A DNA stretch of 62,543 bases, from assembly GCA_017435665.1 (NCBI GenBank), contig JAFSEP010000025.1, positions 1 to 62,543 of the forward strand, written 5' to 3'. The position numbers and the translations under genes were made by a program. Shown in pieces: positions 31,935-59,015 of this stretch (position 1 is the stretch's first letter; each line of letters opens with the position of its first letter). The notes beneath the pieces were generated by a model that was given only the letters and a program-made list of their open reading frames with translations, was not told where the DNA came from and did not search any database. The stretch comes from Clostridia bacterium. GTDB lineage: Bacteria; Bacillota; Clostridia; Oscillospirales; Acutalibacteraceae.

Positions 31935-32132
31935 ACTCCTTCCACCGCAAGCGGTCCTCCCTTTCTCAGTGAGGAAGGTATAAGGCTCCCTCCCTGAGGG
32001 AGCTGGCAAAATCGGATAGCGATTTTGACTGAGGGAGTGTGAACGGATGCGTTTTATCGGCGGTATCGGACTTGAAATCCGTATACACCAAATCGGATAC
32101 AATTTGCCGACCGCAGGTCCCGCAATTCTGCA
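31935..32132. repeat. Direct repeat copy A (198 bp)
   Basis: Begins ACTCCTTCCACCGCAAGCGG and ends GGTCCCGCAATTCTGCA. It is near-identical, with scattered substitutions, to copy B at 32517-32713. Confidence 0.75.
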
Positions 32133-32436
32133 CTCTGCATTCTGCGTTCTGCATTTAAAAGGCGTCCCTTTTAGGGGATGCTGTCGCTCTGTGACTGAAG
32201 GGGCTTTTAAGTGCAAGACGCAAAACAAGCCTTTTCGTCCGCAGGGGGCACAAAGCCTTCTCTGAAAGGGAAGGTGCCCGATAGGGCGGATGGGTGCTCC
32301 AACAGCACCGAAAGGTGCTGAGATAAAACGTAGGAATGTACTATTTCCCCCAACGCCCTTGGCGTTGCTTAGGCGACCTCTCCGTCTGCTCCCGTTGGTC
32401 GCATCCACCTCTCCTTTCAGGAGAGGCTTTTGTCAG

Positions 32437-32900: not shown

Positions 32901-32931
32901 AATACTGCAATAACTATCGGAGGTGATTGAT

Positions 32932-43625: not shown

Positions 43626-45170
43626 ATGAGAATAAATTTATTGGCTACCATTGACAGAAATTATCTGCCACCGTTAATTACGATGCTTGTGTCAATCGGT
43701 CAGTCCGACGATTATAATGAGCTTCACGTTTATGTTGCTCATTCAGCTCTTGAGCAGGAGGATTTTGATAAAATTCAGGCTGCCATAGATGAATATAAGA
43801 ATATCATAATTCATCCCACAAGGGTGGGGGATGAATTGTTCCACGATACCCCGGTAATTGAAAGACTTCCCAAGGAGTCTTTTTACAGACTTCTTGCTTT
43901 TGCATACCTTCCCGAGGAGGTGGAAAGGTGTATCTATCTTGATCCCGATACATATATCCTCCGTCCTCTTGATGGGCTTTTCTCAATGGAGATGAACGGA
44001 AATATTATCGGAGCATCAAGCCACGTTTACAGCTTTATGACACCCCTTAACCAGAAGCGTCTCGGAATGGGCAAGAAGGCTGAGTATATCAATTCAGGCA
44101 TTATGCTTATGGATATCAAGCGTATGCGTGAATACAGAACTGTTGAAGAAATCATCACTTATGTAAATGATAATATTCAGAAGCTTTATCTCGGCGATCA
44201 GGATGCTATGAACGCTATTTTCTGGGCAAAGACCTTCAATATTGACGAAAGACTTTACAATATGGACGAAAAAACCGTAAAGCGTCATAAGGTTGACCTG
44301 GATTATGTTAAGGAAAACACCGTTATAGTTCATTATAATGGTAAGTATAAGCCTTGGAACGAGGGCTACAAGGGTATACTTGATGAGCTTTATCCCCCCG
44401 TTGAAAACAAGGGACCTGCTCCTAAGGGCAAGCTGAAGAAGCAGGCAAAGGCATTTCTCAACATTACAAAGCTGAACAAGCAGCAGAAGGTTGTGCTTTC
44501 TGTTGGTGCAGTTGTGTGGGCTTGTCTGCTGTTTGTATATTTCAGATTCGGCGGCGCACTTTGGGAAATCGTAAAAGATCCCGTTATTTTCAAACAATGG
44601 CTTGACCGTGCAGGCGGTTTTGACGATTTGGTTTATATCCTGATAAGAGCTGTGCAGACGGTAGTTAAAATTGTACCGGCAGAGCCTCTTGAAATAGGTG
44701 CAGGCTACGCATACGGTATTTTCGGCGGTACGCTGTATTGCCTTCTGGGTAATATTATCGGTTCCATAGCTATACTTGCCCTGACCAGGAAGTTCGGCAG
44801 AAAGTTTGTTGATATTTTCTATTCTTCAAGTAAAATTGACGATATGAGGATATTCAGAGACCAGAGTAAGGTTTACTCTCTTCTTTTCATTCTCTACCTT
44901 ATTCCGGGCTCGCCCAAGGACGGCTTTACGTATCTTGTGGGACTTACGCCTATCAACTCCACGGCCTTTCTTATTGTAACGTCCATTGCAAGAATACCCT
45001 CAATTATTTCATCCACCTGGTGCGGATACTATCTTGCAGAGCAGAACTATATATTTGCGGCAATAGTTTTCATTGTAACCTTCCTGGTTGGTATCATTGG
45101 CGGAATAATCTATAATAAGATTATGAATAAAAAGAAAGAAGAAGCCGATGAGAAAAAAGTAAACGTATAA
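43626..45170 (+). CDS. GT8 glycosyltransferase fused to a VTT (TVP38/DedA-like) membrane domain
   Basis: 514 residues, RBS AGGAGG. Residues about 1-260 form a family 8 glycosyltransferase with the metal-binding DxD in RCIYLDPDTYIL, YINSGIMLMDIKRMRE and the sugar-binding GDQDAMNAIFW, ending with VHYNGKYKPW. After a basic linker, residues about 295-500 are a VTT domain: EPLEIGAGYAYGIFGGTLYC, GNIIGSIAILALTRKFG and LYLIPGSPKDGFTYLVGLT. Such domains occur in membrane lipid-handling proteins. The fusion suggests glycosylation of a lipid or membrane-linked acceptor coupled to its movement. Confidence 0.88.
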   Translation: MRINLLATIDRNYLPPLITMLVSIGQSDDYNELHVYVAHSALEQEDFDKIQAAIDEYKNIIIHPTRVGDELFHDTPVIERLPKESFYRLLAFAYLPEEVERCIYLDPDTYILRPLDGLFSMEMNGNIIGASSHVYSFMTPLNQKRLGMGKKAEYINSGIMLMDIKRMREYRTVEEIITYVNDNIQKLYLGDQDAMNAIFWAKTFNIDERLYNMDEKTVKRHKVDLDYVKENTVIVHYNGKYKPWNEGYKGILDELYPPVENKGPAPKGKLKKQAKAFLNITKLNKQQKVVLSVGAVVWACLLFVYFRFGGALWEIVKDPVIFKQWLDRAGGFDDLVYILIRAVQTVVKIVPAEPLEIGAGYAYGIFGGTLYCLLGNIIGSIAILALTRKFGRKFVDIFYSSSKIDDMRIFRDQSKVYSLLFILYLIPGSPKDGFTYLVGLTPINSTAFLIVTSIARIPSIISSTWCGYYLAEQNYIFAAIVFIVTFLVGIIGGIIYNKIMNKKKEEADEKKVNV

Positions 45171-45172
45171 TA

Positions 45173-45202
45173 TTGACATTCAGCCCGATATTGTGATACA
45201 AT
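45173..45202 (+). promoter_or_regulatory. Promoter of tRNA-Leu overlapping a hairpin
   Basis: TTGACA (45173-45178), 18-nt spacer, TACAAT (45197-45202). An inverted repeat TTCAGCCCGATA/TATCGGGCTGAA spans the spacer and -10 and may act as terminator for the GT8-VTT gene. Confidence 0.65.
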
Positions 45203-45223
45203 TATCGGGCTGAAATTATATAA

Positions 45224-45310
45224 GCCGGTGTGTTGGAATTGGCAGACGAGACGGACTCAAAATCCGTTGGTAGCAATACCGTGCGGGTTCGACCCCCGCC
45301 ACCGGCACCA
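45224..45310 (+). tRNA. tRNA-Leu (CAA)
   Basis: 87 nt with encoded CCA. Acceptor stem GCCGGTG/CACCGGC, anticodon loop CTCAAAA giving anticodon CAA (45258-45260), a long class II variable arm and T-arm GCGGGTTCGACCCCCGC. It decodes UUG. Confidence 0.96.
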
Positions 45311-45312
45311 AC

Positions 45313-45353
45313 AAAAAAGTCTCTTTTGTCTACCGGACAAAAGAGACTTTTTT
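45313..45353 (+). terminator. Perfect terminator after tRNA-Leu
   Basis: AAAAAAGTCTCTTTTGTC-TACCG-GACAAAAGAGACTTTTTT, an 18-bp perfect stem. A close relative occurs at 46321-46359. Confidence 0.9.
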
Positions 45354-45355
45354 GA

Positions 45356-45477
45356 GTGATGCGTTCCTTCGGAACGAGATGCACACTTTGTGCGTGATGC
45401 AGGCTTCGCCTGTGATGCACGCTTTCGGCGCGTGGGTGGAACGCATCGCATCACCTATCACAGCGCAGCTGCATCAC
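45356..45477. repeat. Stem-loop array punctuated by GTGATGC units
   Basis: GTGATGC (or GAGATGC) at 45356, 45376, 45394 and 45412 alternates with small hairpins: GTTCC-TTC-GGAAC, GCACA-CTT-TGTGC, AGGC-TTC-GCCT and CACGC-7 nt-GCGTG. The array closes with inverted units GCATCAC at 45448 and 45471. The first unit plus hairpin arm (GTGATGCGTTCC) can pair with GGAACGCATC at 45438-45447, so the whole array could fold into a multi-branched cruciform. It lies directly upstream of the S23 gene promoter. Confidence 0.75.
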
Positions 45478-45488
45478 TTATCACGTAT

Positions 45489-45517
45489 TTGCAAACGAGT
45501 TTAATTTATGATATAAT
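45489..45517 (+). promoter_or_regulatory. Promoter of the four-helix bundle gene
   Basis: TTGCAA (45489-45494), 17-nt spacer, TATAAT (45512-45517). Confidence 0.75.
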
Positions 45518-45539
45518 ATTAAAAAGTGAGGTGTGTATT

Positions 45540-45893
45540 ATGTCGGAATCGAAACTTAAAAATCTTTCTATGGAATTCTCCGTCGATATTATTGAATTGG
45601 TAAAGAATCTAAAATCCGCCAAGGAGTCTATCATCTCCAATCAAATCGGCAGAAGCGGTACAAGTATTGGTGCCAATATCCACGAAGCGCAGTATGCACA
45701 AGGCAAAAAGGATTTTATTTCCAAACTTGAAATCGCCTTGAAAGAAGCGAGCGAAACAGGGTATTGGCTTGAACTCTTGTACAGGACGAAATATATTGAT
45801 GAGCAAACGTTCAAAGCCCTTTCATCCAAATGCACTTCCCTAAGAGCAATGTTGATCGCATCCTGCAGAACTGCAAAGGAGAATACAAAATGA
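45540..45893 (+). CDS. Four-helix bundle protein (S23/23S rRNA-intervening-sequence family)
   Basis: 117 residues from ATG 45540 (GTGAGGTG upstream). The sequence is wholly helical with the family's landmarks: LVKNLKSAKESIISNQIGRS, GTSIGANIHEAQYAQGKKDF, ISKLEIALKEASETGYWLEL. Members include proteins encoded in 23S rRNA intervening sequences and the Avd proteins of diversity-generating retroelements; they bind nucleic acid as pentamers. No reverse transcriptase or rRNA is nearby. It is coupled by ATGA overlap to the next gene. Confidence 0.92.
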   Translation: MSESKLKNLSMEFSVDIIELVKNLKSAKESIISNQIGRSGTSIGANIHEAQYAQGKKDFISKLEIALKEASETGYWLELLYRTKYIDEQTFKALSSKCTSLRAMLIASCRTAKENTK

Positions 45894-46252
45894 AATCAAA
45901 GCGGATAATAACAATTGCTGTTATTGTTATTTTGATACCAATCATATTTTGGGTATCATCGTTGATCAAATGCGAGATACTTACTCAAAAATATTTTGAT
46001 GATTTTGAGCAGGCATATACACAAAACACAATGCTTGGAGAAATGGAGTGTTTCAAAGTATTAAATTGCAACGGAAGCACGGCTGAAGTTTACTATGTCA
46101 GCAAAGAAATGACAGATGCCAACGTCTTGACATTCGAGAACAAAAGTGACACTTGGACAGAGATATCATGGCGGACAATCTGGTCTGCCTCGGGAAGTGC
46201 ATCTGAAGTTATATATCCATATTGGTGGCATTTTGTTTACAGTTGCTTCTGA
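45890..46252 (+). CDS. Small single-pass membrane protein
   Basis: 120 residues; its ATG overlaps the S23 stop. One N-terminal hydrophobic helix (about 6-27, IITIAVIVILIPIIFWVSSL) precedes an extracellular domain (CEILTQKYFDDFEQAYTQN, MECFKVLNCNGSTAEVYYVS). No family recognised. Translational coupling to the S23 gene suggests a shared cassette, although it may be an older resident gene whose start was captured. Confidence 0.6.
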   Translation: MKSKRIITIAVIVILIPIIFWVSSLIKCEILTQKYFDDFEQAYTQNTMLGEMECFKVLNCNGSTAEVYYVSKEMTDANVLTFENKSDTWTEISWRTIWSASGSASEVIYPYWWHFVYSCF

Positions 46253-46320
46253 CTTTAACATTACTTTATGTTGTTCATTTCCCGGCTACACACAATTTAC
46301 CCCTATTACCCTCTGAATAT

Positions 46321-46359
46321 AAAAAGCCTCTTTTGTCTATCGGATAAAAGAGGCTTTTT
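46321..46359 (+). terminator. Terminator closing the S23 cassette
   Basis: AAAAAGCCTCTTTTGTC-TATCG-GATAAAAGAGGCTTTTT. Stem and loop closely match the 45313-45353 terminator, with compensatory changes. A second small hairpin, ATATCGC-ACAA-GCGATAT, follows at 46376-46393. Confidence 0.88.
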
Positions 46360-46397
46360 AAAACTATATAGCACCATATCGCACAAGCGATATATCA

Positions 46398-46426
46398 TTG
46401 AAAATCTTCACCGTTTGTGATATAAT
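46398..46426 (+). promoter_or_regulatory. Promoter of the GH13 gene
   Basis: TTGAAA (46398-46403), 17-nt spacer, TATAAT (46421-46426). Confidence 0.7.
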
Positions 46427-46464
46427 ATAATAAAGCAAAATACACTTTCCCCAAGGAGCAGACT

Positions 46465-47775
46465 ATGTGGTACAACAACAGCACGATTTATCAGATATAT
46501 CCCTTAGGCTACTGCGGTGCGCCTAAGGCCAATGACGGAATAGCGGTCTCACGCATTAAAAGAATTGCAGATGCAATACCTCACCTTGTAAAGCTGAACG
46601 TAGGTGCGGTTTATTTCTGCCCTGTTTTTGAAAGCTCAACCCACGGATACGATACGGCTGACTTCTCAAAAATTGACGTAAGACTTGGCAGTAACGAGGA
46701 ATTCAGAGAGCTTTGCAATAAGCTTCACGAAAACGGCATAAGAGTTATTCTCGACGGTGTGTTCAACCACGTTGGCCGTGATTTTTGGGCGTTTAAAGAC
46801 GTGAGGGAAAAGAAGTGGGATTCTCAGTATAAGGATTGGTTCAGAATAAGCTTTGACGGAAACAGCGGATATAACGACGGTTTCTGGTACGAAGGTTGGG
46901 AAGGTCATTATGAGCTTGTGAAGCTGAATCTTGATAACTCTCAGGTCAGAAGCTATCTTCTTGAGTGTGTCGGTGAGTGGATTGATTATTTCGGTATTGA
47001 CGGACTGAGGCTTGATGTAGCGTATATGGTCAACCGTCAGTTTATGCATGAGCTTTCCGCTTTCTGCCTTTCAAAGAAAAATGACTTTTTCCTTGCAGGT
47101 GAAATGATACACGGAGATTATAACGAGATTGTCCGTGAGGATATGCTTCACAGCGCAACGAATTATGAGTGCTACAAGGGAATTTATTCTTCCCTGAACT
47201 GTATGAATATGTTTGAAATAGGCTATTCGCTGAACAGACAGTTCGGCCCTGAGAATTGGTGTCTTTACAGAGGAAAGCAGTTGATTTCTTTTGTTGACAA
47301 TCACGATGTGAGCCGAATTGCATCAATTCTCACGAATAAGAAGCATATTTACTCTGCCTACGGATTGCTGTTCGGTATGCCGGGAATTCCCTGCATTTAT
47401 TACGGAAGCGAGTGGGGGATAGAGGGCAGAAAGGAAGACGGAGACTATGCTCTCCGTCCTGAAATCGATAAGCCTGTATTCAACGAAATAAGTGAGTATA
47501 TATCAGCCTTGTCAAAAATCCGTCAGGACAGCAGGGCGCTTTCTATGGGCTCTCTTTATGTGCTTCACACCACCAACAAGCAGCTCATTTTCGAGCGCAG
47601 ATATGAGAATGATCGTGTGCTTGTTATGATAAACATTGATGAAAACGAATATACCGCATACTTTGATGCTAAGGCGGAAAAGGGTGTTGACCTGATTTCA
47701 GGTGAGGAAATCAACCTGAGCCAAGGCTGTTTGCTCGAGCCTTATGCGGTTAAATATGTACGTGTGGATGTGTAA
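46465..47775 (+). CDS. Alpha-amylase family glycoside hydrolase (GH13)
   Basis: 436 residues, RBS AAGGAG. GH13 conserved regions are complete: VILDGVFNHVG, GLRLDVAYM (nucleophile Asp184), AGEMIHGDY (Glu213) and FVDNHDVSR (Asp281). It is short, with the minimal C-terminal beta domain, like intracellular maltogenic/neopullulanase-type or cyclomaltodextrinase-like enzymes, but lacks their N-terminal domain. No signal peptide; it acts on imported malto-oligosaccharides. It is 2 bp upstream of a dehydrogenase gene. Confidence 0.92.
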   Translation: MWYNNSTIYQIYPLGYCGAPKANDGIAVSRIKRIADAIPHLVKLNVGAVYFCPVFESSTHGYDTADFSKIDVRLGSNEEFRELCNKLHENGIRVILDGVFNHVGRDFWAFKDVREKKWDSQYKDWFRISFDGNSGYNDGFWYEGWEGHYELVKLNLDNSQVRSYLLECVGEWIDYFGIDGLRLDVAYMVNRQFMHELSAFCLSKKNDFFLAGEMIHGDYNEIVREDMLHSATNYECYKGIYSSLNCMNMFEIGYSLNRQFGPENWCLYRGKQLISFVDNHDVSRIASILTNKKHIYSAYGLLFGMPGIPCIYYGSEWGIEGRKEDGDYALRPEIDKPVFNEISEYISALSKIRQDSRALSMGSLYVLHTTNKQLIFERRYENDRVLVMINIDENEYTAYFDAKAEKGVDLISGEEINLSQGCLLEPYAVKYVRVDV

Positions 47776-58413: not shown

Positions 58414-58444
58414 AAATTTTTAAGAAAGAATGAGGTAAAAAATT

Positions 58445-58711
58445 ATGTTTAACAAGATTAAGTCAATCGCAACAGGTGTTGCAAACAAGGTAAAGGGTTT
58501 CGTTTCAGCAAAGGAAACAGAAATGGCAGCAAAGGCTCACGCAGTTCTTGACGGTACTGTTGCTGAAGCCTATGTGGACACAGGCGTTAAGATTCTCATC
58601 GCCGTTGTAATCGGTGCTCTTCTTCTCGGCGGTCTTTACGCTCTCTTCAACACAACCATTATGCCCACAGTCACAAGCAAGATTCAGGGACTTTTCAACT
58701 ACGCAGGTTAA
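58445..58711 (+). CDS. Pilin-like small membrane protein 2
   Basis: 88 residues. MFNKIKSIATGVANKVKGFV, then the shared DGTVAEAYVDTGVKILIAVV block and membrane helix GALLLGGLYALF, ending FNYAG. The first 20 residues equal those of paralogue 3, and the leader before the start (AAGAAAGAANGAGGTAAAAA) is shared by all three genes, so this is a recent tandem duplication. Confidence 0.72.
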   Translation: MFNKIKSIATGVANKVKGFVSAKETEMAAKAHAVLDGTVAEAYVDTGVKILIAVVIGALLLGGLYALFNTTIMPTVTSKIQGLFNYAG

Positions 58712-58748
58712 GCGAAAACAAAAATAAGAAAGAACGAGGTAAAAAATT

Positions 58749-59015
58749 ATGTTTAACAAGATTAAGTCAATCGCAACAGGTGTTGCAAACAAGGTAAAGG
58801 GTTTCGTTTCTGCAAAGGAAACAGAAATGATGGCAAAGGCACACGCAGTTCTTGACGGTACTGTTGCAGAAGCCTATGTTGACACAGGCGTTAAGATTCT
58901 CATCGCCGTTGTAATCGGTGCTCTTCTTCTCACACTTCTCTATGCACTCTTCAACGACACAATCATGCCTACCGTAACCGAAAAGGTCGAAGGTCTTTTT
59001 AACTACGCAGGCTAA
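58749..59015 (+). CDS. Pilin-like small membrane protein 3
   Basis: 88 residues, paralogue of the two preceding genes. The DGTVAEAYVDTGVKILIAVV block is identical to copy 2, but the end of the membrane helix and tail differ (LTLLYALFNDTIMPTVTEKV). Divergence confined to the helix end and tail suggests distinct packing positions, for example major and minor subunits. Followed by a strong hairpin. Confidence 0.72.
   Translation: MFNKIKSIATGVANKVKGFVSAKETEMMAKAHAVLDGTVAEAYVDTGVKILIAVVIGALLLTLLYALFNDTIMPTVTEKVEGLFNYAG

Follow-up and report, generated by a model that had tools for sequence, protein, structure and literature searches.

Small, probably mobile elements with an S23 gene and heptamer-array ends: a copy behind tRNA-Leu(CAA) in a Clostridia bacterium

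Introduction

The closest described systems to the locus analysed here are intervening sequences of 23S rRNA that carry S23p, a gene of the same family (Pfam accession PF05635), and that have inverted termini able to form a stem. In Coxiella, S23p is preceded by GACAGAT heptamers in tandem, located at the RNase III site, and RNase III excision of the intervening sequence was shown in vitro (PMC4990558). The accessible text of that report notes the heptamers for that element only (PMC4990558). S23 shares a superfamily with Avd of diversity-generating retroelements, and PF05635 is said to resemble Avd (PMC10053308). S23 genes have also been reported inside cas loci (PMC3936711). Their annotation, ‘four helix bundle protein’, conveys no function.

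Two further groups of sequences are similar in anatomy. Gut-1 RNA (Rfam accession RF01706) consists of hairpins with UUCG-type loops separated by GUGAAAU units and is listed as a noncoding RNA found in environmental sequence only (PMC2864571). Orphan heptamer repeats, including cyanobacterial STRRs, TAACTGA of Beggiatoaceae, GGGNATC of Xanthomonas and Nostoc and the class 3 sites of Geobacter, are tandem 7-nt units that are largely intergenic. Slippage or unknown binding proteins have been proposed for such repeats (PMC4679880, PMC4692102), and we found no mention of S23 in the accessible text of three of the reports (PMC4679880, PMC4692102, PMC2700814). Heptamer tandem repeats, Gut-1 RNA and rRNA intervening sequences have long been unexplained, and one anatomy may account for all of them.

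Here we analyse a 62,543-nt stretch of DNA (the window) from a Clostridia bacterium of the Acutalibacteraceae (GenBank assembly GCA_017435665.1, contig JAFSEP010000025.1). The window contains what is probably one copy of a family of tiny mobile elements in which S23 is the sole common gene and the ends are heptamer arrays particular to each element. We know of no mobile element that has variable-heptamer array ends and a four-helix bundle as its only gene, and for this reason we set the family apart as a new kind. The family is apparently undescribed, and it is widespread; a cautious alternative is to regard it as a form of the rRNA intervening sequence, its nearest kin.

Results

A heptamer/hairpin array precedes an S23 gene behind tRNA-Leu(CAA)

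The locus lies outside 23S rRNA, unlike the 23S rRNA intervening sequence: an array of about 130 nt follows tRNA-Leu(CAA) and its terminator-like repeat (Table 1). A sequence-only reading of the window had presented 45356..45893 as a stem-loop array feeding an S23-like gene; the array reaches to about 45484, and the remainder is promoter plus gene. Within the array, GTGATGC units alternate with small hairpins and inverted GCATCAC units close the structure, much as that reading described. Exact GTGATGC copies start at 45356, 45394 and 45412, with a one-mismatch copy at 45376. Exact GCATCAC copies start at 45448 and 45471, and a one-mismatch copy at 45443 overlaps the next by two bases. These seven units in 135 nt compare with a maximum of three in any other 135-nt stretch of the window.

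Table 1. Features of the locus and related sequences in the window.
Feature	Position	Strand	Remarks
Orphan plain heptamer array (ATTCTGC), right-end type, no S23 gene	32120..32159	+	
tRNA-Leu(CAA)	45224..45310	+	Host transcription unit upstream of the element; ARAGORN; Rfam tRNA 49.3 bits
Homology with second copy (L004)	45306..45893	+	83.8% over 592 nt
Terminator-like inverted repeat of tRNA-Leu(CAA)	45312..45354	+	19-bp perfect stem, T-tract
Array half 1, GTGATGC units alternating with small hairpins	45356..45437	+	
Closing stem, 5' arm	45358..45367	+	Partner 45438-45447
Closing stem, 3' arm	45438..45447	+	Partner 45358-45367
Array half 2, inverted GCATCAC units and truncated TATCAC copies	45443..45484	+	
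Promoter TTGCAA-17-TATAAT	45489..45517	+	Promoter scan; directly 3' of the array
S23 / four-helix-bundle gene	45540..45893	+	PF05635, TIGR02436; 117 aa
Array right-end stretch like L006 (ATATCA type), without S23	46361..46420	+	By eye

The multi-branched fold proposed for the array is likewise supported by predicted folds. Three hairpins between the direct units fold alone (45363-45375, 45401-45411 and 45419-45434), and a fourth, near 45380-45392, is present only in the fold of the whole stretch. The closing stem pairs at 10 of 10 bases, and the equivalent stem covaries in related arrays (helix 1 of the covariation test below). The minimum-energy fold of the whole stretch additionally pairs direct with inverted units and has an energy of -57.3 kcal/mol, against -43.7 (sd 3.55) in 200 shuffles (z -3.8, better than all 200). 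An Rfam scan of 44500-47000 found only the tRNA at threshold.

The inverted repeat in front of the array is probably a property of the host rather than of the element, because similar repeats follow tRNA-Leu(CAA) in relatives that have no array (e.g. L329 and L324). The terminator scan called no terminator at this repeat. Behind the array, the good promoter that had been claimed for the gene matches 10 of 12 consensus positions; the same scan returned 8 sites in 1.4 kb against 4.0 in shuffles. Since this promoter lies directly behind the array, S23 could be transcribed without the array.

The encoded protein matches PF05635 over nearly its full length (100.6 bits, cut-off 33.8) and TIGR02436 (109.8 bits, cut-off 24), which places it in the S23 family. 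Each of the solved relatives 2rld and 2gsc is made up of five chains. No catalytic domain is recognised in S23. Neither of the Avd models matches the window protein, while 8 of 48 aligned S23 proteins match Pfam bAvd and one (L009) matches the PHROG entry ‘Avd protein of DGR’. The absence of a reverse transcriptase, remarked on from the window, holds across the whole draft genome (about 99% completeness) in an RVT_1 profile search; RVT_1 is present in 13 of 59 relatives. A diversity-generating retroelement, or another retroelement, is thus unsupported as a reading of this locus. Three S23 proteins gave no PADLOC match, and we rejected a defence system.

We also considered a second element gene. 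An ORF at 45890-46249 overlaps the S23 stop codon (ATGA) and has a hydrophobic N-terminal stretch and no Pfam match. Homology with L004, a second copy of the element in this genome, does not extend past the S23 stop codon. The sequence of L004 differs at the place of this ORF, so the ORF may be a passenger or belong to the host.

S23 genes are flanked by repeats of period seven

S23 genes are widely flanked by repeats of period 7, and rarely by repeats of other periods. We scored an array where the self-match at distance 7 reached 21/28. From this genome and its relatives we took 102 S23 matches in 97 loci, leaving out duplicates (identical protein and identical 60 nt upstream). Some broken genes in this set count as two pieces (L025, L047 and L071), and these loci, like those of the tree and of the target-site comparison below, include orthologues, so that the counts are not all independent. 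Distance 7 passed upstream of 51/102 and downstream of 41/101 matches, against 8/110 upstream regions of control ORFs taken from the same loci. Distances 4-6 and 8-13 gave 0 in S23 regions and controls alike; distance 14, a multiple of 7, passed in 20/102 upstream, 15/101 downstream and 0/110 control regions.

The same period is found across phyla. Among named loci, the best 80 of 567 confirmed stretches, distance 7 passed upstream in 45/80, downstream in 45/80 and on either side in 58/80; other distances passed in 0-3 loci, with 14 again high. By record title, these best 80 of 567 belong to 14 phylum-level groups plus two unplaced records, and 12 of the 14 groups include a passing locus (for example, Bacillota 24/35, Bacteroidota 12/16 and Chloroflexota 9/9). 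The strict threshold was failed by 22 of the best 80, including the sole Treponema and the sole Desulfobulbaceae loci. Phage contigs had period 7 in 19/23 cases and period 8 once. We viewed seven plasmid loci among 30 records (six cyanobacterial, one flavobacterial), and six have arrays by eye (the exception is L306); five of the six cyanobacterial S23 genes are flanked by heptamer arrays.

Arrays are in turn concentrated near S23. The 95 S23-selected loci (408 kb) contain 113 strong period-7 arrays. The 111 kb within 400 nt of an S23 match account for 94 of them, and the other 297 kb for 19. Loci fetched with an amylase query (104.6 kb) hold two strong arrays; one of these loci (L128) is the window's own, with its S23, and the others are without S23. 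Arrays equally frequent away from S23 had been named as the outcome that would speak against a link. These counts show a strong concentration at S23, with an exception in the Gut-1 loci described below, most of which are S23-less.

In the plain form, inverted ends share a unit that goes with the protein

Plain arrays typically consist of about five direct heptamers before S23 and a similar number of inverted heptamers after it, placed in gene junctions of operons, with the left array mostly lying after the upstream gene's stop codon and before the start of S23.

The two ends of an element usually share their unit. Among 100 S23 matches (E<1e-6, >=95 aa), 35 have both arrays, and the similarity of left units to inverted right units is 5.26 for own pairs and 3.75 for other pairs (best of 10,000 permutations, 4.27). 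The members of the best 80 of 567 with both arrays above score give 5.33 for own and 3.55 for other pairs (best permutation 4.33; n=24). The inverted match clearly fails in 3/35 elements (L060, L093 and L011).

The unit also follows the protein. Canonical S23 proteins pair with units of the form Y-A-G-K-N-N-N, and other plain-array proteins with units around A-A-T-K-C-A. Across 94 elements with a clear left array, unit similarity declines with protein distance (r=-0.416; strongest of 2,000 permutations, -0.080): near-related S23 proteins have units in common, and distant ones do not.

Unit number centres on five. Counting AG cores spaced 7 nt apart in the best 80 of 567, we most often found chains of five to the left on the S23-sense strand (18/80), then of six (15) or four (14). 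To the right, on the other strand, five is again commonest (17/80), closely followed by 2 to 4. Chains in shuffles, on opposite strands and at other spacings are mostly 1 to 3 cores long (opposite strands mostly 1-2). The match between five units and the five subunits seen in solved relatives is suggestive. The range in the best 80 of 567 is 2 to 24 units on the left and 1 to 18 on the right, and long arrays (24 chained AG cores in L223 and 13 in L205; nine or more units in L010) indicate that unit number can expand.

The order of units is weakly kept between the two ends (0.847 against 0.823, n=70, a difference that the choice of best register partly favours). This weak order speaks for recognition of units over a strictly paired stem. 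We rejected a strict RNA stem between the two arrays on the same weak effect of permuting unit order.

The hairpin form is one S23 clade and includes Gut-1 RNA

In the derived form, hairpins separate the heptamers, both half-arrays lie upstream of S23, the gene is served by a promoter of its own, and the element follows a terminator, in most cases that of a tRNA gene. A tree of 101 unique S23 proteins (100-139 aa) placed 35 of 36 hairpin-labelled proteins, with one unlabelled row, in a single clade (support 100/98). This clade is nested among plain-array proteins, and the labels need 5 changes against 32.3 for shuffles; its sister clade has plain arrays of ATTATTC type. The plain form is probably ancestral. 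The sequence-only reading had asked whether other stand-alone S23 genes are preceded by hairpin arrays. Most do have arrays, hairpin-spaced in this one clade and made of plain heptamers elsewhere.

The hairpin form covaries and includes Gut-1, an orphan RNA of Rfam. The Gut-1 model matches the first half of hairpin arrays, with the unit GUGAAAU and similar units. At E 0.001 it matches 49 of the 291 genomes searched from the class, with 33 above threshold, and it occurs 13 times in this genome; 14 control genomes gave one match, below threshold, in E. coli. The array in the window scores 22.8 bits, below the gathering score of 50, and Gut-1 passes threshold upstream of S23 in 4/20 hairpin-class S23 loci, including L006 of this genome. 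Conversely, 7/30 Gut-1 loci have an S23 gene (one a fragment), and in 23/30 S23 is absent from the examined stretch, some of which end at contig ends. We read these S23-less Gut-1 loci as candidate non-autonomous copies.

For a covariation test we selected by eye 11 Gut-1 loci (out of 30) that looked full-length, and we based the structure mainly on a single one. Across the 11 arrays, pairing holds in 91.3% of cells (in only about 70% for helices 2 and 6), and 27/38 pairs have changed on both sides. The covariation score is 0.468, against 0.168 in shuffles (0/500 reach it) and 0.03-0.11 in slid controls. Between array and S23, 24/36 hairpin-class loci have a promoter-like site with at least nine matches, compared with 9% of shuffles. 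Rfam scans of 20 hairpin-class loci found no intron family at threshold.

Target sites differ by clade, and sites exist with and without the element

The target also follows the S23 tree. We found a tRNA or tmRNA gene within 650 nt upstream on the same strand at 22/36 hairpin-class loci, 5/11 sister-clade loci and 0/54 other loci. With clade lists taken from the tree (L075 and L069 placed in the clade where they fall), hairpin and sister clades together give 27/47 against 0/54 (Fisher 3.7e-12 with loci treated as independent; some of them are orthologues). On the opposite strand, no locus has a tRNA or tmRNA within 650 nt.

Canonical elements mostly follow a gene of the same orientation. Of 58 upstream neighbours in the canonical set, 50 lie on the same strand and 8 on the opposite strand; the count leaves out loci with weak arrays on both sides or without an ORF in reach, which gives 58 upstream and 56 downstream neighbours. 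Most arrays of this set begin no more than about 50 nt from the upstream gene's stop codon. Cyanobacterial examples opposite in orientation to the upstream neighbour exist. On an Anabaena sp. 90 plasmid (L304, 1195-1563), an S23 element lies between cas6 and cas4; S23 genes at CRISPR/cas loci may be insertions in an operon junction.

Three junctions compared across genomes suggest movement. First, among 20 loci read at parA|parB, one genome (G029) carries an S23 element. ParA appears to take its end from the left array of this element, and the right array directly adjoins the ribosome-binding site of ParB. Two genomes (G012 and G016) have S23-less elements with inverted ends of AATTCGG type, and remnants are seen in G001, G010 and perhaps G013 and G019; the last of these, the nearest S23-less relative, may itself hold a remnant. 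By eye, G004, G020, G023, G026 and others have no array. Second, at dgt|dnaG, G017, G018 and G022 have S23 elements, while G008, G005 and G006 have S23-less elements with three different units; by eye G015, G011, G031, G007 and others have no array. Finally, at tRNA-Leu(CAA) we read 30 loci (one, L320, ends 26 nt past the tRNA), and eight have an array behind the terminator by eye: GTGATGC (the window), GTGAAGT, ATGAAGT, GTGATGT, GTATATCATC, two ATT-type pairs and one solo. The other loci have no array by eye, and within the stretches examined S23 is present only at the window's locus. Orphan inverted pairs without S23 occur elsewhere in the fetched loci, and orphan right ends occur in the window.

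A target-site duplication could not be defined at parA|parB or dgt|dnaG, since at these junctions the divergence between the genomes compared is about 8% or more. Mobile elements are indicated jointly by empty sites, by copies that lack S23 but have like ends, and by different units at the same junctions. As judged from these comparisons, it is very likely that the S23/heptamer-array unit is mobile.

Discussion

What S23 may do

Two readings of the array had been offered, as the cognate RNA or DNA of the protein or as the recombination site of a small mobile unit. Both are compatible with the evidence at the same time: the array appears to be an end-structure of a mobile unit, and, as far as sequence comparison can tell, both the unit and the architecture of the array go with the S23 protein.

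We consider it likely that S23 recognises the heptamer units; that it is necessary for movement is, on balance, somewhat favoured. In the mechanism we propose, an S23 pentamer would recognise the array, at about one heptamer per subunit, and would mark or fold both ends of the element. Recognition of the ends could thereby enable mobilisation, in trans also of S23-less copies. The strand-transfer chemistry would probably be supplied by the host. A resident reverse transcriptase seems not to be required, as RVT_1 has no match in this genome and is found in a minority of its relatives. RNase III may process transcripts of the plain form.

A broader proposal is more tentative. A protein-only pentameric ring might read about five heptamers per end in a code of each lineage's own, and might move the element and S23-less satellites without any transposase, integrase, ribozyme or reverse transcriptase carried by the element. 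Ribosomal RNA intervening sequences, Gut-1 and many orphan heptamer repeats (cyanobacterial STRRs and others) could then be traces of a separate kind of mobile element spread over many phyla.

It is unlikely that S23 is a passenger, with the arrays moved by a host or phage enzyme and the protein doing another job such as RNA protection or processing. The protein has no catalytic signature, S23-less copies are common, and some Coxiella rRNA intervening sequences are described as persisting despite a large deletion in S23p (PMC4990558), all of which would suit a passenger. Against this, S23 is the gene between the two arrays, and unit, array architecture and target type follow S23 phylogeny; a passenger would show this only through co-inheritance with the element.

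Also doubtful is a purely cis-regulatory role, in which an S23 ring binds about five heptamers and controls its own or neighbouring expression, as the ring-shaped regulator TRAP might suggest, and the elements spread with host genes only. The position of the arrays is consistent with this, as the plain-form left array mostly precedes the S23 start within the same junction and the hairpin-form array lies directly upstream of the S23 promoter; so is the tracking of unit with protein. This reading sits poorly with the inverted array behind S23, which has no obvious regulatory role, and with the different units at the same tRNA site in different genomes. An autoregulatory leader alone is not preferred, since S23-less copies with both ends occupy the same junctions and sites without any array exist.

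That the heptamers are slippage products, and that S23 genes merely sit in junctions where such repeats build up, is highly improbable: bacterial heptanucleotide repeats are over-represented and have been ascribed to polymerase slippage (PMC4692102, PMC4679880), but the occurrence of the same unit inverted on both sides of S23 contradicts this origin, the YAG or AAT cores are conserved, and arrays are rare in the amylase-query loci.

Relation to described systems

The relation of S23 elements to the rRNA intervening sequence is close. Read as CAGATGA, the Coxiella heptamer fits the YAG-type unit of S23 elements in our reading. S23 elements differ from the intervening sequence in that they sit behind tRNA terminators or in mRNA junctions and have S23-less copies, and in that the heptamer array is general across them and particular to each. 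The hairpin form further differs in having its own promoter and both half-arrays upstream of S23. In open-licence literature, from which subscription journals are mostly missing, we found no link between S23 and heptamers in print beyond Coxiella.

Gut-1 has the architecture of the hairpin form; the window unit is GUGAUGC, and the Gut-1 model covers the first half of the array only. The Avd proteins share the superfamily, while the window genome has no RVT_1. Among orphan heptamers, TAACTGA and MTYCTGA hold a CAG core on the other strand, again in our reading.

Other parallels are functional. In REP/RAYT systems and MITEs, short palindromic or inverted units in many copies are moved in trans by a single-copy gene. 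S23 elements would work in a like manner; they differ in their four-helix bundle, which has no known transposase domain, and in their heptamer-array ends. Group IIC introns insert directly behind intrinsic terminators, and the hairpin class seems placed behind T-tracts in the same way; RVT_1 has no match in this genome, and the 20 hairpin-class loci scanned have no Rfam intron match at threshold.

If S23 does move these elements, they would represent a mobilisation system without any known recombination enzyme, and the many protein-heptamer pairs would amount to a naturally occurring code by which a small ring protein recognises sequence. A shared anatomy would also predict that each S23 protein binds its own heptamer, and not that of another.

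Other copies and relics in this genome and window

The draft genome (2.23 Mb, 64 contigs) encodes eight PF05635 genes by profile search. All eight have an upstream array by eye, six hairpin-spaced and two plain (L001 and L005). The only two S23 loci that share a unit are the window locus (L003) and L004, and the pattern GTGATGC-N6-20-GTGATGC occurs in the genome at these two loci, plus one chance-like match on contig C12; the reversed control pattern has zero matches in the genome. Homology between the two copies ends at the S23 stop codon. L004 sits behind tRNA-Tyr, and L003 behind tRNA-Leu(CAA).

The window holds further traces. The S23-less right-end stretch downstream of the S23 gene (Table 1) is a probable relic of a hairpin array. 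A second terminator-like repeat (within 46320-46420), 90% identical to 45314-45352, precedes this stretch. The right-hand end motif of S23-less heptamer elements, CCGCAATTCTGC, has copies at 32120, 32475 and 32701, all within a single long intergenic region that precedes an ORF at 32923.

At L008, a further hairpin array with unit ACTTCATT lies downstream of S23, directly behind a terminator-like repeat, and an array resembling it is found behind tRNA-Leu in G017 (L322). The window also contains a 304-bp tandem duplication at 58421-59015 (two copies, 88% matches; Tandem Repeats Finder).
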